Shown here one piece after another: positions 3,967 to 17,921 of a DNA stretch of 21,171 nucleotides. How positions within the stretch are numbered: position 1 is the first letter of the stretch; the number at the start of each line of letters is the position of its first letter. A program made the translations under genes and the position numbers. Source of the DNA: a virus; the IMG/VR virus record IMGVR_UViG_3300025137_000363, positions 1 to 21,171 of that record. One strand, given 5' to 3'. Under the pieces are notes generated by a model that saw nothing but the letters and a program-made list of their open reading frames with translations, made no database searches and had not been told where the DNA came from.

Positions 3967-5424
3967 ATGAAATTTAATTATAAGACTGAACCGTATGCTC
4001 ACCAGCATGAGGCACTAATTCGCAGCTATGACAAAAAACATTATGGCTATTTTATGGAGATGGGCTGTGGAAAATCTAAAGTTCTTCTCGACAACGTGGT
4101 CTGGTTGTATGAGCAGGGCAAGATCGACACCGCGGTTATCGTAGCTCCGAAGGGGGTGTATCGTAACTGGCAGATTAGCGAGATACCCGCACACTTTCCC
4201 GATGACATAGAGCATGAGGTTTTTGTTTGGAAATCTAACCCCAACAAAAAGCAACAAGAGGAACTGTCGAACGCAGTTAAACATCGAGGCGGTCTTCGTA
4301 TATTACTGGCTAACGTAGAGGGCTTTGCCACAGGAAAACTGTCGAAGTATGTCGATCTATTTATGAAAGACTCTAAGGTGCTATTCGCAATTGACGAGTC
4401 AACTACGATAAAAAACCCCAAGGCAAAAAGAACTAAGGCACTGATAAAAGCAGGTGCGAGTGCCCCGTACAGACGTATTCTTACAGGATCGCCAGTGACA
4501 AAGTCACCTATGGATCTGTACTCACAGTGTGGTTTCTTGGACAATTCCTGTTTGGGTTTTTCTTCCTTCTACTCGTTCCAGGGCAGGTATGCGATAACAA
4601 GAACACAGCGCATGGGCGGACATAGTTTTCAACAAATCGTAGGTTACAGAAACCTAGAAGAGTTATCCGAAAGACTGGAAAGATTTTCGTTCAGGGTCAC
4701 AAAAGAGGAAGCTTTGGATTTGCCAAACAAAGTATATACGACGCGAGACGTTTACTTAAATGAGGAACAAAGCAAGCATTATATGTCTATAAAAAATAAT
4801 GCTATCGCCCTGCTGGATGAAGGTGAGCTTGTTTCTGCACCGTCAGTCATGACCCAGCTACTACGGCTTCAACAGGTACTGTGTGGTCATTTAATGACCG
4901 ACGACGGAGATCTTGTGGAGTTCCCTACCACTAGAATAAATGCCTTGATGGAAACCATTGATGAGATGACTGGCAAAGTTATTATATGGTCTAGGTTTCG
5001 ATACGACATAAGACGGATAGTTCAAGAGCTAACGAAGGTGTACGGAAAAGATTCAGTTGTCTCTTACTTTGGTGATACCAGCGATGAAGACCGACAGAGT
5101 GCTGTAAGAAAATTTCAGTTTGAAGATGTAAGATTCTTTGTAGCTAACCCGCAAACCGCAGGTTATGGACTGACGTTAACAGCCGCGACTAATGTGATCT
5201 ATTACGCTAATGATTTTAACTTGGAGACCAGAGTCCAATCCGAGGATCGGTGTCATCGCATTGGGCAAGATGAGTCAGTAATCTATGTTGATCTGGTTAC
5301 AAAGGGATCTGTTGACGAACATATTGTCAGGTCTCTTCGCTCGAAGATTGATCTTTCGGCAAAGACTCTTGGCGAACAAGCTCGTCAATGGTTGGAACTG
5401 ACCCCCCGCCGAAATGCCTATTAG
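3967..5424 (+). CDS. SNF2-type superfamily 2 DNA helicase/ATPase (485 aa)
   Basis: The two RecA-like domains of an SF2 SNF2-family ATPase are complete. Motif I is MGCGKS at residues 32-37. Motif Ia is in VIVAPKGVYRNW (58-69). Motif II is DEST at 144-147, in place of DEAH/DEGH. Motif III is LTGSPVTKSP at 173-182. Motif IV is in IIWSRFRYD (340-348). Motif V is TAGYGLTLTAA (398-408) and motif VI is QSEDRCHRIGQ at 425-435, the SNF2 signature. It should hydrolyse ATP to translocate on double-stranded DNA; strand separation is not typical of the family. Phages often carry short SNF2 proteins like this beside replication or recombination genes. An AGGAGGGG lies before the ATG. Its last 98 bases are antisense to the nuclease-like gene on the other strand. 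Confidence 0.95.
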   Translation: MKFNYKTEPYAHQHEALIRSYDKKHYGYFMEMGCGKSKVLLDNVVWLYEQGKIDTAVIVAPKGVYRNWQISEIPAHFPDDIEHEVFVWKSNPNKKQQEELSNAVKHRGGLRILLANVEGFATGKLSKYVDLFMKDSKVLFAIDESTTIKNPKAKRTKALIKAGASAPYRRILTGSPVTKSPMDLYSQCGFLDNSCLGFSSFYSFQGRYAITRTQRMGGHSFQQIVGYRNLEELSERLERFSFRVTKEEALDLPNKVYTTRDVYLNEEQSKHYMSIKNNAIALLDEGELVSAPSVMTQLLRLQQVLCGHLMTDDGDLVEFPTTRINALMETIDEMTGKVIIWSRFRYDIRRIVQELTKVYGKDSVVSYFGDTSDEDRQSAVRKFQFEDVRFFVANPQTAGYGLTLTAATNVIYYANDFNLETRVQSEDRCHRIGQDESVIYVDLVTKGSVDEHIVRSLRSKIDLSAKTLGEQARQWLELTPRRNAY

Positions 5425-5776
5425 ATGCGTTCTTGATAGCTATTTTGTTGCCGTTTTTTTGGAAGTTTGTTTGTGGTGTGTCGATCTGATGAGGGAACAA
5501 GGCGCAACGTCCTGACTCTAGGTCTACATACAAAAGTCTAACACCAAGTTTTAGTTGTGCGGGTTTAAGGAGACGAGAAATGATTGAGCCATTTTTTCTA
5601 CGGCCAACAGTTTTAACATCGAAACACAGAAGTTCTCCGGTCGGAGAGAGTGCAATTAAGTCAATGGGTCCTTGTTCAAGAAAAGGCTGGTACACATAGC
5701 AACCCTGAGACAAAAGCCAGTTGGCAGCAATTAATTCAGATCTTTTACCATCTCTAATTCTATGATCTGGTCTCAT
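5327..5776 (-). CDS. PD-(D/E)XK nuclease-like protein (149 aa), antisense to its neighbours
   Basis: The protein has the layout of small PD-(D/E)XK nucleases such as Holliday-junction resolvase-like enzymes. Glu14 lies in the first helix (GKRSELIAANWLLSQG), GPIDL carries Asp39, and FDVKT carries Asp53 and Lys55 on the next strand. A basic segment (VGRRKNGSI) follows. These are the expected metal and catalytic residues, so nuclease activity is likely. The C-terminal third (from about residue 110) is low in recognisable structure and is exactly the part that overlaps the SNF2 gene. GAGGGT lies 12 bases before the ATG at 5776. It is the only minus-strand gene within the early plus-strand block, and it faces the RHH gene across a 65-base control region. 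It may pair functionally with the SNF2 ATPase (inference). Confidence 0.85.
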   Translation of the reverse strand: MRPDHRIRDGKRSELIAANWLLSQGCYVYQPFLEQGPIDLIALSPTGELLCFDVKTVGRRKNGSIISRLLKPAQLKLGVRLLYVDLESGRCALFPHQIDTPQTNFQKNGNKIAIKNASNRHFGGGSVPTIDELVRQESLPKDQSSSEET

Positions 5777-6093: not shown

Positions 6094-6657
6094 ATGAGCG
6101 ATATTTTTACGCTGATGGATGAAGACGTCGAAGCTAACAAGTTTGACAATGTTGATGAGGAAAAAGGTTCGCAGTTATCGGATCTAATAAAAAAGTCCTT
6201 AGATATAGATAATAAAATAAAAGAGGCCGAGCAGTACCTCAAAGATTTAAAAATCCAAAAAAGAGAAGTGTCTGAGAAGGAAATCCCACAGCTTATGTTG
6301 TTGATGGGTATGGAAAGCATTTCTGTTGAAGGTAATAAAGTTGCCTTGAGACAGTTCGTGCATGCTCGTATTCCTGATGACATGAAAGATCAGGCTTTTT
6401 CTTGGATACGATCTATTGGGGAGGGGGACATAATTAAACACGATGTCACTGTCTCTTTCAACGCGGGACAAGACAATGTGGCAGGGTCAGTTGTCGAAGA
6501 CTTGCGAGACCAGGGGTTGGATCCTGCACAGAAAACTCACATACATCCACAAACACTCAAAGCATGGGTCAAGGGACGTATTGAGGCGGGTAAAGAAATA
6601 GACTTTGACACGTTCGGTGTCTTCGTTGGAACAGAAGCTAAGATTTCTAGGAGCTAG
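6094..6657 (+). CDS. Conserved phage replication-module protein (187 aa), coiled coil plus C-terminal domain
   Basis: AGGAGAAG precedes the ATG at 6094. The acidic N-terminus (LMDEDVEANKFDNVDEEKG) is followed by a long charged helix from about residue 25 to 65 (DLIKKSLDIDNKIKEAEQYL, then KIQKREVSEKEIP) that looks like a coiled coil. Residues 75-190 form a separate domain with VARLRQF-like strands (NKVALRQFVHARIP), AFSWIRSIGEG and a C-terminal HPQTLKAWVKGRIEAGKEID. I do not recognise a named family, though proteins of this type sit beside ssDNA-binding proteins in marine phages. It lies six bases before the ssDNA-binding gene, so a helper role in replication or recombination is the best inference. 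Confidence 0.85.
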   Translation: MSDIFTLMDEDVEANKFDNVDEEKGSQLSDLIKKSLDIDNKIKEAEQYLKDLKIQKREVSEKEIPQLMLLMGMESISVEGNKVALRQFVHARIPDDMKDQAFSWIRSIGEGDIIKHDVTVSFNAGQDNVAGSVVEDLRDQGLDPAQKTHIHPQTLKAWVKGRIEAGKEIDFDTFGVFVGTEAKISRS

Positions 6658-6663
6658 AATAAA

Positions 6664-7467
6664 ATGACAAATACACAAGTGGCGGAGGCCAAGAATACTC
6701 TACCTGTTAACATCATGGATGACATGTATGAAAACGCAGGGGCGGGCACAGAAAACTTAACCGCGGATGATATGCAGATTCCGTTTTTACGTATCCTACA
6801 ACCGCTATCACCACAACTTTTGAAGACTGATCCCAAGTATCTTAAAGGTGCGTCCGCTGGGGATTTGTTTAACACAGTTACCGGGGACGTGTGGGACGCT
6901 GATACTGGAGTGACCATTATACCTTGTGCCTTTCAGAAAAAATATCTGGAGTTTCAGATTCGTGAGAATGGCGGCGGATATGTTGGTGAGCATTCACCAA
7001 ATGCACCGGAGGTTAGAAATACTGAACGTGTTGGCGCGAGTGAGATGATGGCTTCAGGTAATGAGCTCATTGTATCTTTTCAGTTCCTTGTATTGGGTAT
7101 GACTCCAAACGGTAGTTTTCAACAGATGATTTGTGACATGAAAAAGACACAGACCAAAGTTGCGAAGCAATGGAACACAAGGCGTACTGGCCTGAAAATA
7201 ATGCACCCCACAAAGGGTCTGTTTACTCCACCCATGTGGGCTACTGTATGGCAGTTAAAGACGGTACAAGAAACCAACGACAAAGGATCGTGGTTCAACT
7301 ATGACGTTTCTAACTTAGATGCCAGCGCCGTTAGCCCGGAGGCTATGGCGGAGGCTAAGGGTCTTTTCACTAAGTTCCAGAAGGGTGAGATTAAAACTCA
7401 GGCTGGTACACAAGAAGAGATGAAAGAACAAGATAAATCAGACTTGGTAGATGACGTACCTTTTTAA
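6664..7467 (+). CDS. Probable phage ssDNA-binding protein (267 aa) with SSB-like C-terminal tail
   Basis: The 267-residue protein has a large strand-rich central region: DDMQIPFLRILQPLSPQ (residues 35-51), GVTIIPCAFQKKYLEF, and a basic segment rich in Lys and Arg (MKKTQTKVAKQWNTRRTGLK). A linker of acidic and Gln-rich residues leads to the extreme end DLVDDVPF. That tail matches the acidic, Phe-ended tip (DDIPF type) by which bacterial SSB recruits partner proteins. T7 gp2.5-like proteins also end in an acidic tail with a terminal Phe. Size and place between the 187-aa protein and the primase fit a phage SSB coating single strands during replication. No OB fold can be proved by eye. The start has GGAG 12 bases upstream. 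Confidence 0.72.
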   Translation: MTNTQVAEAKNTLPVNIMDDMYENAGAGTENLTADDMQIPFLRILQPLSPQLLKTDPKYLKGASAGDLFNTVTGDVWDADTGVTIIPCAFQKKYLEFQIRENGGGYVGEHSPNAPEVRNTERVGASEMMASGNELIVSFQFLVLGMTPNGSFQQMICDMKKTQTKVAKQWNTRRTGLKIMHPTKGLFTPPMWATVWQLKTVQETNDKGSWFNYDVSNLDASAVSPEAMAEAKGLFTKFQKGEIKTQAGTQEEMKEQDKSDLVDDVPF

Positions 7468-7497
7468 GTAAGTGATGGGTTTAGGGAACACATCAAA

Positions 7498-7526
7498 GCC
7501 TGACAGGGTTAACAGCTTTGTCAGGC
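7498..7526 (+). other. Perfect 8-bp hairpin between the ssDNA-binding and primase genes
   Basis: GCCTGACA at 7498-7505 pairs perfectly with TGTCAGGC at 7519-7526 around a 13-base loop that itself contains GTTAAC. The stem is GC-rich enough to form in RNA. No run of T follows (GCTTAAAAC), so it is not a standard terminator. It ends about 11 bases before the primase Shine-Dalgarno (AAAGGGG). It could be a leaky terminator, an RNA-processing or stability element, or a protein-binding site. Confidence 0.5.
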
Positions 7527-7550
7527 GCTTAAAACTTAAAGGGGCAACTC

Positions 7551-9083
7551 ATGAACGACCAAGAACGGTTCATGGCCGCGTTTGAAGGTTTCAGTTCGGC
7601 ACATGGACAGACACAAATATCTAGTGAGCGCAGGGCTGGCAAGCAAAAAGCTAAGTCATATATAGTTCGCAAACCACTAACATTAGACCTTGTTCTCGGC
7701 CACCTAGAGGGTCGCAATGGGGTTGGGTCTATACCTATCAATGAGTCTAACAAGTGTAGGTTCGGTGCTTTGGACATCGATCAATATCCGCTTGATCTAG
7801 TGGCTCTTGATAAGAAGCTACGCAGTATAGAAGTTCCTAGCGTGGTCTGTCGCTCCAAGTCTGGAGGGGCACACATATTCTTTTTTTTCACAGACTACAT
7901 GAGTGCAGGAGAGTTCCGTGACAAAGCATCAGAAATTGCATCGTATCTTGGATATGGTGGTTGCGAGATATTTCCAAAGCAGGAGCAGGTTCTTGTCGAG
8001 CGTGGCGATGTTGGTAACTTTATCAACCTTCCGTACTTTGATTCGGAACAGACGCTCCGCTACGCTATTAAGGAAGATGGCGAGCCCGCATCTTTAAAAG
8101 AATTTTTAGCTCTTGTAAAAGAAAGAACAGTAAAACCTGACACCTTTGTTGCTCTAACTCTTGGAGATCCCGTCCAGGAATTTAAGGAATGGGCACCGTG
8201 TTTAAGTTGCATGTTTGGTCAAGGTATTCCGGAGGGCACACGTAACACAGTTATGTTTGCGGCGGCGGTTGGTTGTAAGAAAGAACAGCCAGAGAACTGG
8301 AAGTCTAGACTCGAAGAGATTAACAACAAGTTTTGTAAACCTTCTGCTTTGCCTGCATCAGAGATAGTTACGATACAACAACAGCACGAGAAGAAAGAGT
8401 ATGGCTTTCCGTGCGAGCAGGAACCTTTAAAAAGTTACTGCAACAAAACACTTTGTAAGACAAAGAAGTTCGGTATTGGATCTCACACATCTAGCTTAGA
8501 TGTGACGGGTTTATGTGTGGTTAAGTCGGAGCCTCCGGTATGGTTTTGTGATGTGTCCGGTCAACGTGTTGAGCTTACAACGGATGATTTGCAGACACCT
8601 CAGAAGTTTCAGAAGGCTTGTATGGAACAAATACATAAGATGCCGCCAATGCTTAAGACAGCGGACTGGCAGGCTATCGTTGGCATGATGATGGAGGATA
8701 TGAGCGAGATAGAAGTTCCAGAAGAACTAACATACAAAGGTCAGTTTATGGATCTTCTCGAAGGTTTTTGTGATGGACGCGTTCAGGCGCAGTCATTTGA
8801 AGAGATTACACTTGGGAAACCATTCACAGAAGAGGATGGGTTTACTTACTTTAAAATTGAAGCCTTGATGAAGTACCTGCGCAACAACAAGTTTGACACG
8901 TATAGTAGGGGGCAAATTCAAGAAAGACTGAAAGAGTTAAACAACGGTCCAGCTAATGGACAGAAAAGATTCCCTACGACTATTGGGGAAAACAAACAGA
9001 TGCGCGTCTGGTGGGTTCCTTCTTTTAATCAGGAGGTCAAAGTATCGGGGATCGCGGTCCGAGGTGATGAGGTGCCGTTCTAA
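7551..9083 (+). CDS. Archaeo-eukaryotic-type primase (AEP, TOTE-like), 510 aa
   Basis: This is a DNA primase of the AEP superfamily. Metal-binding Asp75 and Asp77 lie in FGALDIDQY, and SKSGGAHIF (102-110) carries the nucleotide-binding S-G-G-x-H with His108. EIFPKQ (139-144) and GNFINLPYF (155-163) complete the palm. The set resembles TOTE-type primases. The middle has a conserved RNTVMFAAAVG helix (231-241) and cysteines C217, C220, C288, C297 and C302, the last three in FPC...SYC...LCKTKKFGIG. That spacing recalls the iron-sulfur or zinc domain of PriL/PriCT-type modules. Residues 340-510 have no clear family. The protein ends RGDEVPF, similar to an SSB tail tip. It should make primers for the PolA at 11303. 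ATG 7551 follows AAAGGGG. Confidence 0.9.
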   Translation: MNDQERFMAAFEGFSSAHGQTQISSERRAGKQKAKSYIVRKPLTLDLVLGHLEGRNGVGSIPINESNKCRFGALDIDQYPLDLVALDKKLRSIEVPSVVCRSKSGGAHIFFFFTDYMSAGEFRDKASEIASYLGYGGCEIFPKQEQVLVERGDVGNFINLPYFDSEQTLRYAIKEDGEPASLKEFLALVKERTVKPDTFVALTLGDPVQEFKEWAPCLSCMFGQGIPEGTRNTVMFAAAVGCKKEQPENWKSRLEEINNKFCKPSALPASEIVTIQQQHEKKEYGFPCEQEPLKSYCNKTLCKTKKFGIGSHTSSLDVTGLCVVKSEPPVWFCDVSGQRVELTTDDLQTPQKFQKACMEQIHKMPPMLKTADWQAIVGMMMEDMSEIEVPEELTYKGQFMDLLEGFCDGRVQAQSFEEITLGKPFTEEDGFTYFKIEALMKYLRNNKFDTYSRGQIQERLKELNNGPANGQKRFPTTIGENKQMRVWWVPSFNQEVKVSGIAVRGDEVPF

Positions 9084-9289
9084 TGGGATACATAGCTAAC
9101 TTTTACTGTGATAGATGTAAATCCAAATGGAAGGTGTTTTATAACAAGCACAAATCGATGAATGAAGGTGATGCCTGTCAGGTATGCACTGACGATAACC
9201 AATGGGGTACGGACAAAATGGTTGTCGTTGAACCTCATTTCTATACAGAAGTGGACTATGATGGATATGACCTTGAGGGCAAGTCGTAA
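9083..9289 (+). CDS. Small four-cysteine zinc-finger-like protein (68 aa)
   Basis: The ATG sits in a TAATG junction with the primase stop, and the gene's own stop forms another TAATG with the helicase start, so the three are coupled. Cysteines at residues 9 and 12 (CDRC) and at about 32 and 35 (CQVC) form a zinc-ribbon pattern spaced by a basic segment (KSKWKVFYNKHK). The C-terminal half is acidic and Tyr-rich (YTEVDYDGYDLEGK). Being locked between primase and helicase genes suggests a role in the replisome, perhaps as a DNA- or primase-contacting factor. That is inference. Confidence 0.78.
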   Translation: MGYIANFYCDRCKSKWKVFYNKHKSMNEGDACQVCTDDNQWGTDKMVVVEPHFYTEVDYDGYDLEGKS

Positions 9290-10803
9290 TGGAAACCACT
9301 ATCTTCGGACCACCTGGCACAGGAAAAACAACCAGGTTAATAAATATAGTACGTCAAGAAATAGAAGGCGGTACGCAACCGGAAAAAATAGCATTTGTTT
9401 CTTTTAGTAAAAAAGCTGCGGAAGAAGCACGGACTCGCGCCTCTGAAAAATTAAGCATGGATGTAAACCAAATGGCCTGGTTTCGCACGTTGCATTCATT
9501 TGCGTTTCAGACTCTTGGTCTTGGAACAAGGCAAGTCATGGGCGGCAAGGATTACAATAAACTAGGTGACTTGTTGGGGTTGGAATTTAAGGCGAGCGCA
9601 GGTGTTAAGATGGCCGATGGTCTTTTGTTCTCTCCTGGCAACGGCGGCGATGCGTATCTTACTATGATACAGATGGCTCGTGTAACGGGGACATCTATTG
9701 AGGAGCAGTTCTCTAGGGTTGCTAACAGGAATCTTCACTACCAACAACTCAAGCTAGTAGATCAGGTACTAAGAGACTACAAGGAAGACACCGGAAAGAT
9801 TGATTTTGTAGACATGATACAGGATTTTATAACGGAGGGTTACTGTCCTCAGTTAGATGTTCTTATTGTGGACGAAGCACAGGATCTAGTTCCCATGCAG
9901 TGGCAAATGGTTCATGAGGTTATGAAACCTTGTGCCAAGCGCATATATTATGCGGGCGATGATGACCAATGCATATACTCTTGGATGGGTGTGAACGTGG
10001 GAGATTTTCTTAACGCATCTGAAGATAAAATAATTTTAGATAAATCATATCGTCTTCCCATATCTGTTCATGGCATGGCGGATTCTCTTGTAAAACAACT
10101 ACATACAAGACAACAAAAAGTGTGGTCACCTACAGAAGAAGCTGGAAGTGTTGTCTGGCATCGTGATATCCTTGATGTGGACATAACAACCGGAGAGTGG
10201 TTAATACTTGCTCGCACCAATTACATCGCCAATAGAATCGCAAACAATCTTAAAGAACAAGGATTCCTTTACTGGCGTGAAGGTTCCGGTTGGTCCATCT
10301 CCCCCAATGTATTAACTGGAATAGAGGTGTGGTTGCGCTTATGCAAAGGTCAGTATTTATCTGCGACGGAAGTAAAGAAGTTATCAACGCTATTAACGCC
10401 AAACGTTATTACCAAGGCTGGCAGAAGAAAGCTGTCACTACTAGACGCCGAAGTAACTTACAATCTAACAGACATACAAAACCTGTGCTCGTTGAGCGCA
10501 ACAGAGCAAACTCCGTGGTACGAAGTCTTGAAAGTTTCGGAGACAGAGCGGATTTACATTACATCTGTAAGGCGGATGGGCGAGTCGATCTTGTCGGGGA
10601 AGCCGAGGATTCGGATATCGACGATACACAAAGCAAAGGGTGGAGAGGCGGATAACGTCGCTCTTCTTTTAGATTCTTCAAGAGCATGTGCGTTAAACCA
10701 AGATCAAGATTCCGAGCTACGGACATTCTACGTAGGTATCACTCGCGCTAAAAAAACATTACATCTAATTGAATCACAATCGCAACACGGGTTTCAGATA
10801 TGA
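9289..10803 (+). CDS. Superfamily 1 UvrD/Rep-like DNA helicase (504 aa)
   Basis: All SF1 motifs are visible. Walker A is GPPGTGKTT at 7-15. Motif Ia is FVSFSKKAAEEAR at 36-48. Walker B is VDEAQD at 194-199. Motif III is AGDDDQCIYSWMG at 222-234. Motif IV lies around DKSYRLP, motif V around RISTIHKAKGGEADNV (442-457), and motif VI is FYVGITRAKK at about 480-489. It should unwind DNA with 3'-5' polarity like UvrD/Rep. It is shorter than cellular UvrD (about 720 aa) because the 1B/2B insertions are reduced. With no hexameric helicase visible, it may be this phage's replicative helicase (inference). GAGGGC precedes the ATG. The stop overlaps the DUF6378 gene in an ATGA junction. Confidence 0.96.
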   Translation: METTIFGPPGTGKTTRLINIVRQEIEGGTQPEKIAFVSFSKKAAEEARTRASEKLSMDVNQMAWFRTLHSFAFQTLGLGTRQVMGGKDYNKLGDLLGLEFKASAGVKMADGLLFSPGNGGDAYLTMIQMARVTGTSIEEQFSRVANRNLHYQQLKLVDQVLRDYKEDTGKIDFVDMIQDFITEGYCPQLDVLIVDEAQDLVPMQWQMVHEVMKPCAKRIYYAGDDDQCIYSWMGVNVGDFLNASEDKIILDKSYRLPISVHGMADSLVKQLHTRQQKVWSPTEEAGSVVWHRDILDVDITTGEWLILARTNYIANRIANNLKEQGFLYWREGSGWSISPNVLTGIEVWLRLCKGQYLSATEVKKLSTLLTPNVITKAGRRKLSLLDAEVTYNLTDIQNLCSLSATEQTPWYEVLKVSETERIYITSVRRMGESILSGKPRIRISTIHKAKGGEADNVALLLDSSRACALNQDQDSELRTFYVGITRAKKTLHLIESQSQHGFQI

Positions 10804-11078
10804 GAAACAGAAAATACTTTTTAGAAAAAGCTGAAGAGTTAATCAACGGACCGAGGGCCAAGGAATACGGACCAGCGAAGTTTAATCATGAGCGCATAGC
10901 AACTATCTGGTCTGTTGTGTTAGGAAGACCTGTGACAGCGGAGCAAGTAGTGGCATGCATGATTGGGTTAAAGTTAGCACGTTTAGCCGAGGACATAACA
11001 AAGGATGATTCATGGGTAGATATTATCGGGTATGCTGCACTTGGAGGGGAGATTGTCAATGACCGCGATGAAAGCTGA
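10800..11078 (+). CDS. DUF6378-family protein (92 aa)
   Basis: The protein is helical and carries the pattern of DUF6378 proteins of phages: an N-terminal helix with LEKAEELINGPRAKEYG, then NHERIATIWSVVLGRPVTAE, and MIGLKLARLAEDITKDDSWV ending DIIGYAALGGEI. The acidic helix residues (ExxE, DxxxD) resemble those of MazG-like all-alpha NTP pyrophosphatases, and such a relation has been suspected for similar proteins, but activity is not shown here. A role in nucleotide-pool control would suit its place between helicase and polymerase genes. The start overlaps the helicase stop by four bases. Confidence 0.85.
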   Translation: MRNRKYFLEKAEELINGPRAKEYGPAKFNHERIATIWSVVLGRPVTAEQVVACMIGLKLARLAEDITKDDSWVDIIGYAALGGEIVNDRDES

Positions 11079-11313
11079 TGGATTTAACGACGCAATAATT
11101 GGCGTAGCTGAGAGATGCGGAAGTGATGATATCCTGGTATATGATGCTGAAAAGTGCATTGAAATATTAGTTGAAAGAGATGGCATGTCTTATGAAGAGG
11201 CATGCGAATACTTTTCATTTAATGTAAGTGGTGCCTATGTTGGCGAAGGAACTCCTACATTTGTGTGGTTTCTAACCCCAGAGGAAGCATTGGAGGAAGT
11301 TGATGAAGGCTGA
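11059..11313 (+). CDS. Conserved hypothetical protein (84 aa)
   Basis: ATG 11059 has GGAGGGGAG at 11043-11051 and is preferred over the upstream in-frame ATG at 11032. The product contains GFNDAIIGVAERCGSDDILV, YDAEKCIEILVERDGMSYEE, ACEYFSFNVSGAYVGEGTP and an acidic tail. The segment 'YDxEKCIEIL..RDGMS.EEA.EYF.FNV.GAYVGE.TP' is one I have seen in conserved hypothetical proteins of bacteria and phages; no activity is known. It overlaps the previous gene by 20 bases and the polymerase gene by 11, so it is probably co-translated with the polymerase. Confidence 0.82.
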   Translation: MTAMKADGFNDAIIGVAERCGSDDILVYDAEKCIEILVERDGMSYEEACEYFSFNVSGAYVGEGTPTFVWFLTPEEALEEVDEG

Positions 11314-13177
11314 TTTATTTGATATGGATGAAGAATGGTCACCTCCATCATCTTTACCGGACCTTACTGGGTGTGAGCGCATTGCAATTGATTTGGAAAC
11401 AAAAGATCCGAATCTAACAACTCTTGGCCCGGGCTGGTGCAGGGACGATGGATATGTGATTGGTTTTGCTGTCGCGGCTGGAGACTTTGTAGGATACTTT
11501 CCCATCCGGCATGAAGCGGGCGGGAATATGCCAGAGAAAATCGTTCTTAACTGGTTAAAGAAACAGTTAGCCACACCTAATATTGAAAAGGTCATGCACA
11601 ATGCTATGTATGACTTGGGCTGGTTACGCTGGGCTGGCATAGAGGTGCAGGGTAAAATCATTGACACGATGGTTGCTGCCCCTTTGTTGAACGAGAACCG
11701 CAGATTCTATAACTTAAACTCATTGGCTGGTGAATATCTTGGAGAGTACAAGAACGAGAAGATGCTTCGCGCCGCCGCTGAGATGTACGGGGTAGATCCT
11801 AAGTCCGGTATGTGGCAATTGCATGCTAACTTTGTTGGCAGGTATGCAGAGCAAGATGCCGCGGTAACATTAAAACTTTGGGACAGGCTGCGGGTGGAGG
11901 TAATGAAGGACGAGGTCTCAAGTATATTCCAGCTTGAGTCAAGTCTTATCCCTATCCTGTTGGACATGAAACAAAAAGGTGTTCGAGTCGATACTGACAA
12001 GGCAGAGCGAGTCAAAAAAGAACTTAAGAAAAGAGAAGACTTTTTACTTAAAGAAATAAAGGAAGAGACTGGCATCGTTGTTGAACCTTGGGCCGCTACA
12101 TCTGTAGCAAGAGTGTTCGATGCGCTTGGGCTTTCCTACAACAGGACAGAAGGCACGGATGTTCCCTCCTTTACAAAGAGCTTTCTTTCTAATCACGAGC
12201 ATCCTATTGCGAAAAAGATTGTACGCCTTAGAGAGTTCAACAAGGCCAACACCACATTTGTTGAAACAATACTTAATCATTCTCATAAAGGCCGTATTCA
12301 TTGTGACTTTCATCCACTTCGCACTGATGATGGGGGAACTGTAACGGGTAGATTTTCTTCATCCAACCCTAACCTTCAACAAATTCCAGCCCGAGATCCC
12401 GAGATCAAGGCTATGATTAGGGGCTTGTTTATACCAGAGGAAGGTTGCAAGTGGGGATCTTTTGACTATGCGTCTCAGGAGCCCCGTTGGTTGGCGCACT
12501 ACTGTGCTCAGTTGACTGGTGCAAACCGTCACCCTCAGATCGATAGTGTAGTTGAAATGTATAATAGTGGCAACGCTGATTTCCATCAGATGGTGGCAGA
12601 CATAGCCAGCATCACCCGCAAGGAAGCCAAGACTGTCAACCTTGGTATTATGTATGGCATGGGTAGAAAGAAGCTTGCGGGCGTTATGGATATTACAGAG
12701 GAAGATGCCAAGGTTCTTCTTAGTAAGTATCATGACCGGGTTCCATTCGTAAAAGGTATAGCGGACATGACCGCGGACCGAGCTTCTAAAAAAGGTGTCA
12801 TACGTACATGGTTAGGACGTAAGTGTCACTTCGACATGTGGGAGCCAAAGTCTTTTGGATACAACAAAGCAATGAAGCTGGAAGACGCGGTAGAAGAGTA
12901 CGGTGGACGGGGTATGATACGACGAGCATTTACGTACAAAGCCTTAAATAAATTAATCCAAGGTTCGAGTGCCGATCAAACAAAGAAGGCGATGGTCGAT
13001 TGCTACGCCGAGGGACTACTACCAATGCTGACAGTTCATGATGAACTGTGCTTCAACATAGAATCTCAGGACCAGGTGGAAAGAATTAAAGAGATAATGG
13101 AAACATGCGTCGAGGGATTGAACGTACCGTTTGAGGTTGACGCAGAAATGGGCGACAACTGGGGTGAAGTCGGATAA
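11303..13177 (+). CDS. polA: Family A DNA polymerase with 3'-5' exonuclease domain (624 aa)
   Basis: The phage replicative polymerase. Proofreading domain: Exo I AIDLET (Asp30, Glu32), Exo II HNAMYDLGW (Asp104) and Exo III YAEQD (Tyr181, Asp185) are intact. Polymerase domain: TGRFSSSNPNLQQIP (348-362), motif A FDYASQEPR (Asp388), motif B RKEAKTVNLGIMYG (Arg439, Lys443, Tyr451) and motif C VHDEL (His579, Asp580, Glu581). There is no 5'-3' exonuclease domain. Leu447 stands where E. coli Pol I has Phe762, the 'Leu762' type common in marine phage polymerases. The ATG at 11303 with GGAGG six bases upstream is preferred over TTG at 11300. It is the last gene of the plus-strand block. Confidence 0.98.
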   Translation: MKADLFDMDEEWSPPSSLPDLTGCERIAIDLETKDPNLTTLGPGWCRDDGYVIGFAVAAGDFVGYFPIRHEAGGNMPEKIVLNWLKKQLATPNIEKVMHNAMYDLGWLRWAGIEVQGKIIDTMVAAPLLNENRRFYNLNSLAGEYLGEYKNEKMLRAAAEMYGVDPKSGMWQLHANFVGRYAEQDAAVTLKLWDRLRVEVMKDEVSSIFQLESSLIPILLDMKQKGVRVDTDKAERVKKELKKREDFLLKEIKEETGIVVEPWAATSVARVFDALGLSYNRTEGTDVPSFTKSFLSNHEHPIAKKIVRLREFNKANTTFVETILNHSHKGRIHCDFHPLRTDDGGTVTGRFSSSNPNLQQIPARDPEIKAMIRGLFIPEEGCKWGSFDYASQEPRWLAHYCAQLTGANRHPQIDSVVEMYNSGNADFHQMVADIASITRKEAKTVNLGIMYGMGRKKLAGVMDITEEDAKVLLSKYHDRVPFVKGIADMTADRASKKGVIRTWLGRKCHFDMWEPKSFGYNKAMKLEDAVEEYGGRGMIRRAFTYKALNKLIQGSSADQTKKAMVDCYAEGLLPMLTVHDELCFNIESQDQVERIKEIMETCVEGLNVPFEVDAEMGDNWGEVG

Positions 13178-13263: not shown

Positions 13264-13713
13264 TCAGTTAGTTGCAAGTGCCAGCATACGGTTGACCAAA
13301 CGCCTTGCGCGGTTAGTTACCTGCGTGTACCACCTCGAATCGACCATCTCTTCGCTTGCTCGTTTGAAATCGCGGGCATCGACTGCCGCTTTCATGCCTT
13401 TAAACTTGGACAGGCGGGGTCTACCCATATTGAACATCATGTTGGCAATTATATGCTGACACTCTTCTGGCAGATCATCGAAGTCGTCGTACAAAACTTT
13501 GCACTCGTCAACCGTGATTGCCATGTCAAGCTTGAATAACTGATTGACACGATCTTGCTCGACCACTGTACCCACAGGCTTGCCATACTCTGGCTCACCT
13601 TCGAGGATCAAGTGACCGATGCCCGTTGTTTCCAGACCTAGATGGTCTAAATAAATTTCGTACTTACAGCCTTCGTCTTCGGCTATCTCTTTACGTAGCA
13701 CGTCTATATTCAT
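13264..13713 (-). CDS. T4-type lysozyme, glycoside hydrolase family 24 (149 aa)
   Basis: Cleaves the MurNAc-GlcNAc bond of peptidoglycan. The N-terminus aligns with T4 lysozyme: MNIDVLRKEIAEDEG with catalytic Glu14 (T4 Glu11), then IYLDHLGLETTGIGH with Asp23 (Asp20) and Thr29 (Thr26). The later IANMMFNMGRPRLSKFKGM (about residues 89-107) matches the T4 core helix. There is no signal peptide, so release to the wall needs a holin, or delivery within the virion. The gene is the last of the minus-strand block, and its ATG overlaps the end of the 1403-aa virion protein gene by four bases. This arrangement suggests synthesis with virion proteins. Confidence 0.95.
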   Translation of the reverse strand: MNIDVLRKEIAEDEGCKYEIYLDHLGLETTGIGHLILEGEPEYGKPVGTVVEQDRVNQLFKLDMAITVDECKVLYDDFDDLPEECQHIIANMMFNMGRPRLSKFKGMKAAVDARDFKRASEEMVDSRWYTQVTNRARRLVNRMLALATN

Positions 13714-16700
13714 GATATTCCTCGTTGTTGCATACGTTGTGCTAATTGCACAGTCCGTGGATCTCCGCCCATTAATGCTAAATCAGTTGGCGGTTGTGCC
13801 GTAATTTGTTGAATAGGAACGGGAACCGCTGAAGGGGAAGCAGCGGTTCCCACTTGCGCTACCGCCGGAGGATTGGCCGTAGCAGCAATTGGTAATGTAG
13901 GTTCAGATTGTGTCTCAACAGAGCTAAGTAAGTCAAGATCGGATTGATCTCCATCGTCTATTTCAAGTGGTTTCCCGGTCAGCGGACGTCGTAGTAATGA
14001 CTTACGTATTGCATTAAGCTCTTGTATAGGAAACTCTCCGCCATAGTCTCTTGTAGTTTTTCTGGCATCAGAAACAATTTCAGGAGAAATTACTTTAGGA
14101 CTAAACTCACCTTTTATAAGTCTATTAGCGTCACCCACACCGTTTTCTTTTAACGCTTTACGAATCTCTATTTCATTAAAGCCCAATGCTTTCATGTCCT
14201 TTACCAAACCGTACATGCGGTTTTGTTCACGGAAAAGTCTTTCGTTAACTTCCCTGTAAATATTTTTAATGTTTTCTGGGTCCATCCCATTTTTAACACG
14301 AGTGGCTCTATTGAAAACCTGGCCTATAGAACTAACAGTGTCAGTGTATTGATAAGATCCATACTTAGTTATGTCGTCAGCCTTAATTTTAGTCTCGGCA
14401 ACACCGCTAGCTAGTCGTAAGATTTCCTCAGCCATCTTACGCTCATTGCCTCTAGCATCCTTACCATTTTGAGAAGTTATAGCTTCAACAAGACGACTAG
14501 GCACGTAACCTATATTACCTCCAAGCTCTGGATCTTTGGTTATTTTACCAACAGTTTGCTCCACAATGCTGGGCATAAACGCTTCGGCAATATGAACAAT
14601 AGATTTTAGAGTTGCCTCCGGAATAGTGTCGTTTTTAAAATCACCCGATCCCAAATCGTACACAGGACTTTCTCCTGTGGGCTGACCTTTGCTTGCTGTA
14701 ACATCCAATACTTTTTTAGTTAAAATAGACGGTTCTGCAAACGGAGAAATTAACTCAAAAAACGCCCCCGCTGCTGCGTTAATAGCTACCTCCCCAGGAT
14801 TTAAGTCCAGAAGTGTTCCGTCATCAACGGCGTTTATAACTGCTCTTACGGGACGATTAAGAAAGTCATATGGATTGGTAAAACTGTAGTCTATATATGC
14901 GGTAGGTACAATTTTAGTGACTCCATCAATCTTAACCTTTTTAGTTGAAGTAGGAATAAGAGTAGAGTTTCTGCTCCAATCTGCCACGCGTCTTTGTAAA
15001 GCGTCCATGCTGTCTTGTGCCACGCCCGATAAACCCATCGCTGCCATTTGAATAGCAGGGCCGGAAACAGCAGCGGTGCTGGTAAAACCTATTAGGCGGC
15101 GCATTCCTATGTTTCTAACTTTAGGGTTAGAGGATTGCAGTTCCTTTACAGCAACTCCCAAAGTGTTGGCGCTGGTGCGTATAATTTCTGCGGGAAACGC
15201 AATAAAGTTTCCAAAGGGAACTCGTCGTAAAAGTCTAATTGCCTCTGGAACCCGCTCGTAGTTTGGCACTACATTTTTAACAATGTCCGCAGCATATTCA
15301 TCAAGATCTGCAAAACCCATGTCTCTTGCGTAAGCATTTGCATTGAACTCATCACCCAATGCTGAGATTATTTTGTTTCTTTCAAACTGGTAGTTGTATA
15401 TTTTCCAAATATCATCACCACCTTGATAGTAATCCCTGGCACGACTCGTTATTCTTTTGCCTCTTTCGATTATGGCTGAATCAAGAAATTGTCCCAGACC
15501 TGATTTGCCCAAGGTTCTTCTAACCAAACCCTTGCCTTGCGACACGTTTACACCAAAGCTATCGACTTCACTTTTAATAGAAACTCCGACACCTTCTTCC
15601 AAAAGTTTGTCGATCTCTCGAACCTGCGCTTGTGTTCCAACAACACCTAGATCCTGTAGCTTACGAAAATAGATTCCTTTGGCTTCATCCTCGGCCACCC
15701 CTAACATCTTTGCAAGTCTCGGAATCTCACCCTTGTATATGTTGTCAATAGTTAGAGCGATGGATTCACCTAAATTAGCTCCCCTGCCTACGTTACCCTG
15801 GGCTAAAGCAAACATACCCGCGGATGTTACGTTTCTAATTTGTGTAATAGGAGACAAAACAGTTTTTGAAAACTGAACTAAACCTTTTCCACGCAAAAAG
15901 TTACCCAAGATCATTCTATTAAGAGTGTCTTCAGTAGTGCCGCGAGGAACGGTCTTACGTGTTAATGCCTGATAGGCACCTTCTTTTGCATAAGTTCCTT
16001 GCATAGCTCCGTAGCTTATGTCTTTTACACCCTCGGTTCCTGTAGATAGTTGCTTATATGCTTCCGTTTTTCTTTGACCATTTGGTAGAACATCAGGAAG
16101 TTGCTCGTAAGCCTCTTTTGAAATAAATGTGCTATTTGGACCACTGTCCAGGTGGTTCTTAAAAAGATCATCATAGAAGTCATCAATGGCCTTAAACTCT
16201 GCAAGGTTTGATACAGTGGACACAAAAGACTCCATTGGATCTTTTATCTCTCCCAATAAAGCTCGAAGTGCGGGAGTCTCTATTTTTTTCTGTGTAAACA
16301 AAGAAGTCCGCAGTTTGTCTTTAACAACCCGTCCTACTTGTCCTGACCCCATTGATGTTAAAGTTGAGGGTCCATCGTACCTACTTACAAAGTTATCAAC
16401 TAAACTGGTAGCGGCACCCCTCGTTGTTCTGCGGTCTACACCAATGCCAGTAAACATAGTTTCGTCTTCAGGTAAGTTAAGCTGCCTGGCAAACTTTTCA
16501 GCCATCTCAGGATTTTCTTCATAAAATTTAATTGCATCCTGATAAGACTGTTTAAACGCATCAGTCTTAAACCAGTCGGGATCTTCAAAAGCTGCAAACT
16601 TACGACTCATATACGAGCCTAATTGCTCGTTGATGATGTTCTCCACATCAGGAATCATGCCCTTAGTAATTAGATCAGAGTTAGCTATCTGCTTAGTTAA

Positions 16701-17921
16701 CAGTTCTATCTGACCACGCATAGCTAAAGCCTCGCGTTGCATAAAGTCAGGTAACACTTTTACGAGATCGGTGGTTTTAGTTGGATCAAAATTACGAATA
16801 CCAAGGTGAGCCGCCTCTCTTTTTGCTGCTTCTAAAAACCCAGGTTCGCGGGCCAAGAATCCATATAGGATATTGATGGCTTCTACTTTTGTATTTGCAT
16901 CCCCGTTGGTCATAAGGTTTCGGAATGTTTGATTTTCCGTTCCGATAACTTTATCTAACTTACGCTCCAGTGATCTTATGATTCTACCAGAACGGTTTAA
17001 CTGTTGCTCTATCTTACCTGTCAAGCGTGACCTAGTTTCAAAGGCTCCTTGCGGAAGCATACCTCTAGAGCGAAAAAGACCTAGAATCTTGTCAGTAAAT
17101 TGACCAAAGCCATCATCTTTTTCTATTATCTTGGCTACAGAACTACCTACAGATTCTCCGGTTGCCGCCGCTAACCTAGAAAATCCAACGACATCGTCTG
17201 TTATACGCGCCGCCGCAACGGTTCCCTGTCCCGCTAAACCAAGAATCTTAAACGCGGGTTCGACAGCCGCGGTTGCACCTGCGGCCTCCGCAACAAACTT
17301 AAGTCTATTACCTAGCTGACGTTTAGCATTTTCGTGACCCCCTTGACCTATGTCCTGGGAAGTCATCGTAGGTCCTCCCTCAAAGAAGTCGCCGATAGTA
17401 GTAGTTCCATCGGAAGCAACCATGCCATCCACCACGCCTGCGGCTACTACCTGAGAAGCTCGGTTTGCGTTTTTACTGAAGTTGTACGCCCTAGCTGCTT
17501 TTGAAGCAAGACCCGCAGCGCCAAGACCAGGGACTACAAACTGTGTTATGACTTCTGTTAACTCCCCAGCGGTGCCAGTAGGATCAACACCTAAATATTC
17601 TTTTAGCTCATCTTTAGATTGAGATATCCTACGAGAGTAATCGGAGCCTGTAACAAGATCAGGCACCAATGCTCCAAGTTCTAGAAGACCAGATCCCGCC
17701 TCTATAACGCCACCGACCATACCTTCGCCGATCTCGTTCAATACACCCTCTTCTCTAAACTGAGCTAAGACGGGATCAAAGATAGAATCTTCTTCTTCCG
17801 ACCCGGACGAGTCTTGAGGTTTTTGAGTCTCTAAGTACTGTAGTATTTTTGCTTTAGCATCTTCGGGGCTAGTGCCATCGGGCAAGTTGTACCTCTGACC
17901 CTGATAAGTAAAAGTAGCCAT
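13710..17921 (-). CDS. Very large internal virion / DNA-ejection-type protein (1403 aa)
   Basis: The largest gene of the window. It opens with a short domain (TYQGQRYNLPDGTSPEDAKA, residues 5-24) found at the start of other phage virion proteins. A flexible acidic linker follows (to about residue 50), then amphipathic and hydrophobic stretches such as ITQFVVPGLGAAGLASKAAR (125-144). The middle is helical. Further on is SKTVLSPITQIRNVTSAGMF and a hydrophobic segment, FISPTST-like turns and Pro-rich end sequences (PTLPIAATANPPAVAQVG). No transglycosylase, protease or toxin motif was found. Size and place after three smaller structural genes match T7 gp16 (about 1318 aa), which forms part of the ejection tunnel. 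AAGGAAC precedes the ATG. The assignment is by context, not by a proven domain. Confidence 0.8.
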   Translation of the reverse strand: MATFTYQGQRYNLPDGTSPEDAKAKILQYLETQKPQDSSGSEEEDSIFDPVLAQFREEGVLNEIGEGMVGGVIEAGSGLLELGALVPDLVTGSDYSRRISQSKDELKEYLGVDPTGTAGELTEVITQFVVPGLGAAGLASKAARAYNFSKNANRASQVVAAGVVDGMVASDGTTTIGDFFEGGPTMTSQDIGQGGHENAKRQLGNRLKFVAEAAGATAAVEPAFKILGLAGQGTVAAARITDDVVGFSRLAAATGESVGSSVAKIIEKDDGFGQFTDKILGLFRSRGMLPQGAFETRSRLTGKIEQQLNRSGRIIRSLERKLDKVIGTENQTFRNLMTNGDANTKVEAINILYGFLAREPGFLEAAKREAAHLGIRNFDPTKTTDLVKVLPDFMQREALAMRGQIELLTKQIANSDLITKGMIPDVENIINEQLGSYMSRKFAAFEDPDWFKTDAFKQSYQDAIKFYEENPEMAEKFARQLNLPEDETMFTGIGVDRRTTRGAATSLVDNFVSRYDGPSTLTSMGSGQVGRVVKDKLRTSLFTQKKIETPALRALLGEIKDPMESFVSTVSNLAEFKAIDDFYDDLFKNHLDSGPNSTFISKEAYEQLPDVLPNGQRKTEAYKQLSTGTEGVKDISYGAMQGTYAKEGAYQALTRKTVPRGTTEDTLNRMILGNFLRGKGLVQFSKTVLSPITQIRNVTSAGMFALAQGNVGRGANLGESIALTIDNIYKGEIPRLAKMLGVAEDEAKGIYFRKLQDLGVVGTQAQVREIDKLLEEGVGVSIKSEVDSFGVNVSQGKGLVRRTLGKSGLGQFLDSAIIERGKRITSRARDYYQGGDDIWKIYNYQFERNKIISALGDEFNANAYARDMGFADLDEYAADIVKNVVPNYERVPEAIRLLRRVPFGNFIAFPAEIIRTSANTLGVAVKELQSSNPKVRNIGMRRLIGFTSTAAVSGPAIQMAAMGLSGVAQDSMDALQRRVADWSRNSTLIPTSTKKVKIDGVTKIVPTAYIDYSFTNPYDFLNRPVRAVINAVDDGTLLDLNPGEVAINAAAGAFFELISPFAEPSILTKKVLDVTASKGQPTGESPVYDLGSGDFKNDTIPEATLKSIVHIAEAFMPSIVEQTVGKITKDPELGGNIGYVPSRLVEAITSQNGKDARGNERKMAEEILRLASGVAETKIKADDITKYGSYQYTDTVSSIGQVFNRATRVKNGMDPENIKNIYREVNERLFREQNRMYGLVKDMKALGFNEIEIRKALKENGVGDANRLIKGEFSPKVISPEIVSDARKTTRDYGGEFPIQELNAIRKSLLRRPLTGKPLEIDDGDQSDLDLLSSVETQSEPTLPIAATANPPAVAQVGTAASPSAVPVPIQQITAQPPTDLALMGGDPRTVQLAQRMQQRGIS

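Follow-up and report, generated by a model that had tools for sequence, protein, structure and literature searches.

What opens the replication fork when a phage carries its own primase and polymerase? In most of the viral and cellular replisomes that have been studied a ring helicase does so, and nearly all double-stranded DNA (dsDNA) viruses with a primase of their own encode a replicative helicase (PMC5862659). The question is raised by positions 6094-13177 of IMG/VR record IMGVR_UViG_3300025137_000363, a marine phage fragment of 21,171 bases (hereafter the window). A sequence-only reading had noted here a probable single-stranded DNA (ssDNA)-binding protein, an AEP primase, a UvrD/Rep-like SF1 helicase and a family A DNA polymerase (PolA), with no DnaB- or gp4-type ring, and had argued that SF1 would have to open the fork if no ring exists elsewhere. 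Since the window is only a fragment, whether a ring helicase is absent has to be decided in relatives, and our statements on its absence apply to their genomes. With moderate confidence, we favour the reading that these genes make up a fork machine encoded by the phage itself, in which SF1 is the motor and no ring helicase takes part. The genes concerned are as follows.

3967..5424, plus strand: SNF2-type SF2 helicase/translocase (PF00176, E value 5.7e-20; phrog_62, 7.7e-114)
6094..6657, plus strand: DUF7307 or Pam3 gp33-like protein (PF23984, 5.1e-27)
6664..7467, plus strand: Pam3_Gp34-like protein, Gp34 (PF23977, 5e-61)
7551..9083, plus strand: AEP primase, CAPP-like (AEP-TOTE PF22548, 9.5e-15; phrog_21866, 'primase')
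9083..9289, plus strand: small Cys4 protein (stop/start overlap at both ends)
9289..10803, plus strand: UvrD/PcrA/Rep-type SF1A helicase (PF00580, 1.3e-26; PF13361)
10800..11078, plus strand: DUF6378 protein (PF19905, 5.3e-30; overlaps SF1)
11303..13177, plus strand: PolA with 3'-5' exonuclease (PF00476, 1.2e-63; PF01612)

The module genes lie where the sequence-only reading placed them, in one operon on the right-hand side of the early region, with the PolA frame running from 11300 to 13177 and its ATG at 11303. Its helicase inventory was right as to SF1 and overlooked the SNF2-type SF2 (3967-5424), a third helicase-family protein in the window, which together with a convergent nuclease-like gene (5327-5776) lies upstream of, and outside, the 6094-13177 interval. 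The junctions from AEP through the Cys4 protein and SF1 to DUF6378 are stop/start overlaps (TAATG, TAATG and ATGA), indicating translational coupling.

Profile searches of relatives that encode the AEP found no ring helicase over cut-off. The DnaB_C ring of the T7 gp4 and DnaB-type replisomes was absent from all 36 + 43 = 79 AEP records, with T7 found as a positive control; the sequence-only reading had named a hexameric replicative helicase in the rest of the genome as the observation that would refute its proposal, and in relatives that refutation did not come about. The AAA+ domains of AEP-SF3 replisomes were likewise missing at cut-off, DUF5906 from 28 + 43 = 71 AEP records (phiVC8 and PaMx11 positive) and VapE from 28 (PB1 positive), as were MCM from 39 AEP records and an IstB/DnaC-like loader from the AEP-group genomes. 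The 59 larger frames of the 58-kb relative G005 matched 40 Pfam families; of the 25 listed, UvrD and SNF2 alone are helicase families. AAA_25 hits were rejected as ring helicases, being sub-threshold throughout and in several cases coincident with the SF1 P-loop, and weak ring- or loader-profile hits in Nanhaivirus and in contig G064 were set aside because all fell below cut-off.

The premise of the earlier argument was thus not refuted in relatives, but the step from there to SF1 is weaker than it was made to appear: DnaB, DUF5906 and VapE are also missing from five PolA-related phages that do not have the AEP/SF1 pair. We therefore rejected DnaB absence as sufficient evidence. A better argument for SF1 comes from gene exchange. 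Gp34, DUF7307 and SF2 are common to hundreds of other phages, and all three such groups that we examined carry a D5/VapE-type helicase; as members of a hexameric AAA+ family, these are predicted to be of ring type. PaMx11 shares SF2, DUF7307 and Gp34 with the AEP group and has DUF5906 in place of the AEP-group SF1. PB1 shares the same three genes, and its helicase is of VapE type, with a RepB-type primase lying two genes ahead of it. In phiVC8, Prim-Pol, PriCT_2 and DUF5906 are combined in a single protein, gp28 (locus L116, 12981-15269), which is annotated 'Integrase', a misannotation also discussed for Mesyanzhinovviridae (PMC11946847). Judged by gene content, a primase with a ring-type helicase in one module type stands where the other has AEP and SF1, and SF2 belongs to the background that the two share. 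Since SF2 is common to both module types, SF1 and not SF2 would be the likeliest functional counterpart of the ring.

The pairing of AEP with SF1 is also far beyond chance. The window-type primase is encoded by 24 of 50,697 INPHARED phage records, podo- and siphoviruses of Pelagibacter, Acinetobacter, Klebsiella, Salmonella, Providencia, Dinoroseobacter and Pseudanabaena, and SF1 is present in 24/24. Among 80 close loci from IMG/VR, counting as testable those whose contig reaches far enough for the partner in question, SF1 was found in 73/73, Gp34 in 68/68, DUF7307 in 64/64, SF2 in 49/49 (and in 28/28 AEP records) and PolA in 47/47. In a wider IMG/VR set, made up of podoviruses of a 41-kb group plus other relatives, with identities mostly of 40-66%, all five partners were present in 47/47 loci that had 6 kb on each side; here the order DUF7307-Gp34-AEP-SF1 is near-constant, whereas SF2 and PolA shift place. 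The co-occurrence of AEP, SF1, PolA and the Cys4 protein, which the sequence-only reading had proposed as a check, thus held invariantly for the first three and failed for the Cys4 protein, which is present in 20 of the 80 close relatives and was rejected as a core factor. Mirror-tree distance correlations were uninformative, AEP-SF1 and all other pairs falling at 0.84-0.94 in the ct3Et533-like group and several being undefined in the whole set.

Some single loci deserve mention. Meiothermus phage MMP7 (L096, 6093-9599) pairs a different AEP, a Prim-Pol of PF09250, with a related SF1, and in Thermus phage Riverbug (L097, 6376-8692) an unplaced 'primase' of 236 residues overlaps SF1; the AEP-SF1 pairing may extend beyond the AEP family of the window. 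On contig G013 (L079; L109, 5996-7517) the SF2 and SF1 genes appear to be in pieces, possibly owing to assembly indel errors.

The window primase is a CAPP-like AEP and a predicted primer maker. The superfamily motifs (I, hDhD; II, sxH; III, an acidic residue) are present, and the catalytic residues D75, D77, S104-G-x-H108 (SKSGGxH) and E139 are invariant in 15 and in 77 aligned relatives. A primase profile searched against the PDB gave the CAPP Prim-Pol domain as the closest solved relative (E value 9.5e-15), consistent with the fold of the predicted structure (pLDDT 92.6), which matches CAPP 7nqd (E value 3.5e-11, prob 1.00) and, at the 1e-3 level, the PrimPol of cyanophage S-2L. Four cysteines of the C-terminal PriCT-like domain (C217, C288, C297 and C302) are invariant in 77 relatives and possibly form a zinc or iron-sulfur site, as in the large subunits of eukaryotic and archaeal primases; the PriCT-like domain of MpCAPP also has conserved cysteines (PMC8211822).

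SF1 retains motifs I-VI intact and matches PcrA (E value 1.4e-53), Rep (2e-48) and UvrD profiles. Its motifs IV and V are 190 residues apart, and the two stretches that align to PcrA are separated by no more than some 80 positions of the profile, which suggests that the 2B subdomain is shortened; a full-size 2B is typical of SF1A helicases without strictly defining them. Rep is activated by deletion of 2B, and a shortened 2B would fit a less self-inhibited motor. From membership of the SF1A family we infer 3'-5' translocation.

In a Klenow alignment the window PolA has Leu at the position of Escherichia coli F762, and the same residue stands there in each of the 87 relatives whose motif could be read. 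The enzyme is closest to those of HTVC023P-type phages (46-53% identical) and not to the Acinetobacter enzymes. The set of AEP, SF1 and SF2 also occurs in Acinetobacter, Klebsiella and Salmonella phages annotated with DpoZ and/or an adenylosuccinate synthetase (PurZ-like), which probably have 2-aminoadenine DNA. For the window we rejected such a DNA chemistry, given the affinity of its PolA and the lack of a recognized PurZ-like gene.

These observations suggest how the module might work. The UvrD-type SF1, which shares a translationally coupled message with AEP, would open the fork; because SF1A enzymes move 3'-5', it would travel in front of PolA on the leading-strand template. AEP, associated with or recruited by SF1 through a putative contact, would prime the exposed lagging strand, and PolA, a proofreading Leu762 enzyme, would extend both strands. 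Gp34 and DUF7307 would be obligate accessories, possibly in ssDNA coating or loading, and SF2 and the adjacent nuclease a shared pair of accessory translocase and nuclease and not the fork motor. There is precedent for phages that depend on a helicase of this type, as replication of CTXphi and Pf phage is reported to require host UvrD (PMC4439123, PMC4863604).

Several points weigh against this proposal, in addition to the five ringless PolA relatives described above, which suggest that a phage of this broad kind may replicate with no ring helicase of its own. UvrD-type helicases alone are poorly processive, as PMC6302109 discusses. In the Acinetobacter/Klebsiella/Salmonella group SF1 adjoins PolA and not AEP. 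A ring helicase of an unknown family would escape the profiles used, and the swap with D5/VapE modules rests on three sister groups. Moreover, the role in the fork is read from gene identity, motifs, co-occurrence and exchange, for a virus that is itself represented by a fragment.

Of the alternatives, recruitment of a host DnaB ring survives best, although we regard it as unlikely. SF1 and SF2 would then be accessory, in restart, recombination or removal of bound proteins, and AEP would prime or restart-prime. Lambda and others use host DnaB, and the five PolA phages, in which neither a ring helicase nor the AEP/SF1 pair was found, also speak for it. However, the AEP-group genomes lack a loader of IstB/DnaC type over cut-off, DnaB does not usually work with an AEP primase, and an SF1 that is never lost (24/24 and 73/73) would be unusual for an accessory gene; the sister modules, moreover, exchange AEP and SF1 for a D5/VapE-type helicase and not for nothing.

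We give little credence to a second alternative, in which PolA displaces the strand itself with no dedicated fork helicase, and SNF2 only remodels DNA-protein complexes. Some viral SNF2-linked Leu762 and Phe762 PolAs do displace strands in vitro, and strand separation by PolA is proposed by the authors of PMC9069017; the results given there, however, show displacement by only two of five primer-extending Leu762 enzymes, at high enzyme concentration, and the idea gives no account of an SF1 that is invariant and translationally coupled. It is very improbable that the roles are reversed, with SF2 driving the fork and SF1 assisting: SF2 is as invariant as SF1 in the AEP group, and a DEAD/DEAH helicase is among the core markers used for HTVC023P-type phages (PMC9599517), but the same SF2 occurs in 853 phage records, among them the three groups examined here in which a D5/VapE-type helicase is present as well, and so does not replace a ring; its position varies while DUF7307-Gp34-AEP-SF1 stays together; and SNF2 proteins are argued in PMC9069017 to be translocases without strand separation.

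Two further features of the window, and some of its remaining genes, touch on the fork proteins or lie beside them.

5327..5776, minus strand: UPF0102-like protein (phrog_5018, E value 2.1e-9; UPF0102 sub-threshold, 0.014)
7498..7526, plus strand: hairpin in the Gp34-AEP gap (8-bp perfect stem; gap fold -26.9 kcal/mol)

The UPF0102-like protein is probably a PD-(D/E)XK-type nuclease; in DSL-LC04 a gene annotated as such adjoins SF2. Gp34 is the protein that the sequence-only reading called a probable ssDNA-binding protein. A fold search with its AF2 model (pLDDT 90.4) gave no significant match in the PDB and only weak matches to viral proteins resembling single-stranded DNA-binding protein (SSB), and phiVC8 and Acinetobacter phages have a separately annotated SSB beside Gp34, so that an SSB-like role is possible but unproven. 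The Gp34-AEP gaps of relatives contain stems of at least 7 bp, and up to 12 bp, in 19 of 36 distinct gaps, often of unrelated sequence, which suggests a conserved structure there, perhaps an attenuator, a processing site or a priming or origin signal. A frame of 93 residues (11032-11313) spans the DUF6378-PolA junction and has no Pfam match; nor has a minus-strand protein of 1403 residues at 13713-17921, which adjoins a phage lysozyme and probably belongs to the inside of the virion or to the DNA-ejection apparatus.

If the proposal is true, a processive ring is not always required, and the exceptions would include marine phages that rank among the most abundant: in one estuary, contigs with UvrD, SNF2 and Leu762 took up 16.4% of the reads that mapped to PolA contigs (PMC6302109). 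Helicase-primases of the herpesvirus kind would also gain a small model system that can be expressed in bacteria. The identity of the enzyme that unwinds DNA in Leu762-PolA phages comes within reach of experiment.

Among known systems, the same gene set, in similar order, is that of the HTVC023P-type pelagiphages (HTVC023P, HTVC027P, 023Pt_psg01 and DSL-LC04), whose genomes are about 58.8 kb with helicases and PolA in the core genome; in the genome descriptions of PMC9599517 these genes serve as markers, without an analysis of replication mechanism. The phiVC8 or Mesyanzhinovviridae module (PMC11946847) shares SF2, DUF7307, Gp34 and PolA, but has Prim-Pol and PriCT_2 fused to a DUF5906 AAA+ of SF3/D5 type where the AEP group has an AEP-TOTE primase and a separate SF1. 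CAPP and other AEP-TOTE Prim-Pols (MpCAPP, PMC8211822; PDB 7nqd and 7p9j) resemble the window primase in catalytic domain, by sequence and predicted fold, and in a C-terminal PriCT-like region with conserved cysteines; unlike CAPP, the window AEP stands alone in a phage replication operon with SF1, without a TPR or CRISPR context.

The Leu762 Group II PolA module of Chesapeake Bay virioplankton (Nasko et al. 2018, PMC6302109) likewise combines a Leu762 PolA with UvrD-like and SNF2-like proteins and no ring, and the present gene set has the same hallmarks (Leu762, UvrD with SNF2, and no ring in relatives). The idea of ring-free replication in Leu762-PolA phages is therefore already published: that paper reports UvrD always with SNF2 and contrasts ring with non-ring helicases. 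Its passages on primases discuss DnaG only, and AEP, the DUF7307-Gp34-AEP-SF1 cassette and the D5/VapE exchange were not found in them. New here, as far as the literature consulted goes, are an AEP partner that is never missing, a cassette that stays invariant in several lineages of phages, and its exchange with AEP-SF3 modules.

Finally, the herpesvirus UL5/UL52/UL8 complex (PMC8187027, PMC12695949), the best-known case of such an arrangement, also joins an SF1 helicase to an AEP primase without a hexamer, a likeness that here concerns the gene set only. UL5 is Pif1-like and moves 5'-3', whereas the window SF1 is UvrD/PcrA-like with an expected 3'-5' polarity; the window AEP is CAPP-like and outside the NCLDV-herpes clade; the polymerase is of family A rather than family B; and the herpesvirus helicase-primase is a physical complex, whereas the window pair is known from its genes and their translational coupling alone. 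Given a PcrA/UvrD-like SF1 and a CAPP-like AEP, the module would work like the herpesvirus helicase-primase without being a member of it. We tentatively suggest, as a possibility on which we place somewhat less weight than on the fork-machine role itself, that tailed phages of several lineages, together a large class, replicate without a ring, using a CAPP-like AEP and a UvrD-type SF1A that would move 3'-5' on the leading-strand template, a convergent bacterial counterpart of opposite polarity to the herpesvirus enzyme that is cassette-exchanged with AEP-SF3 ring modules.

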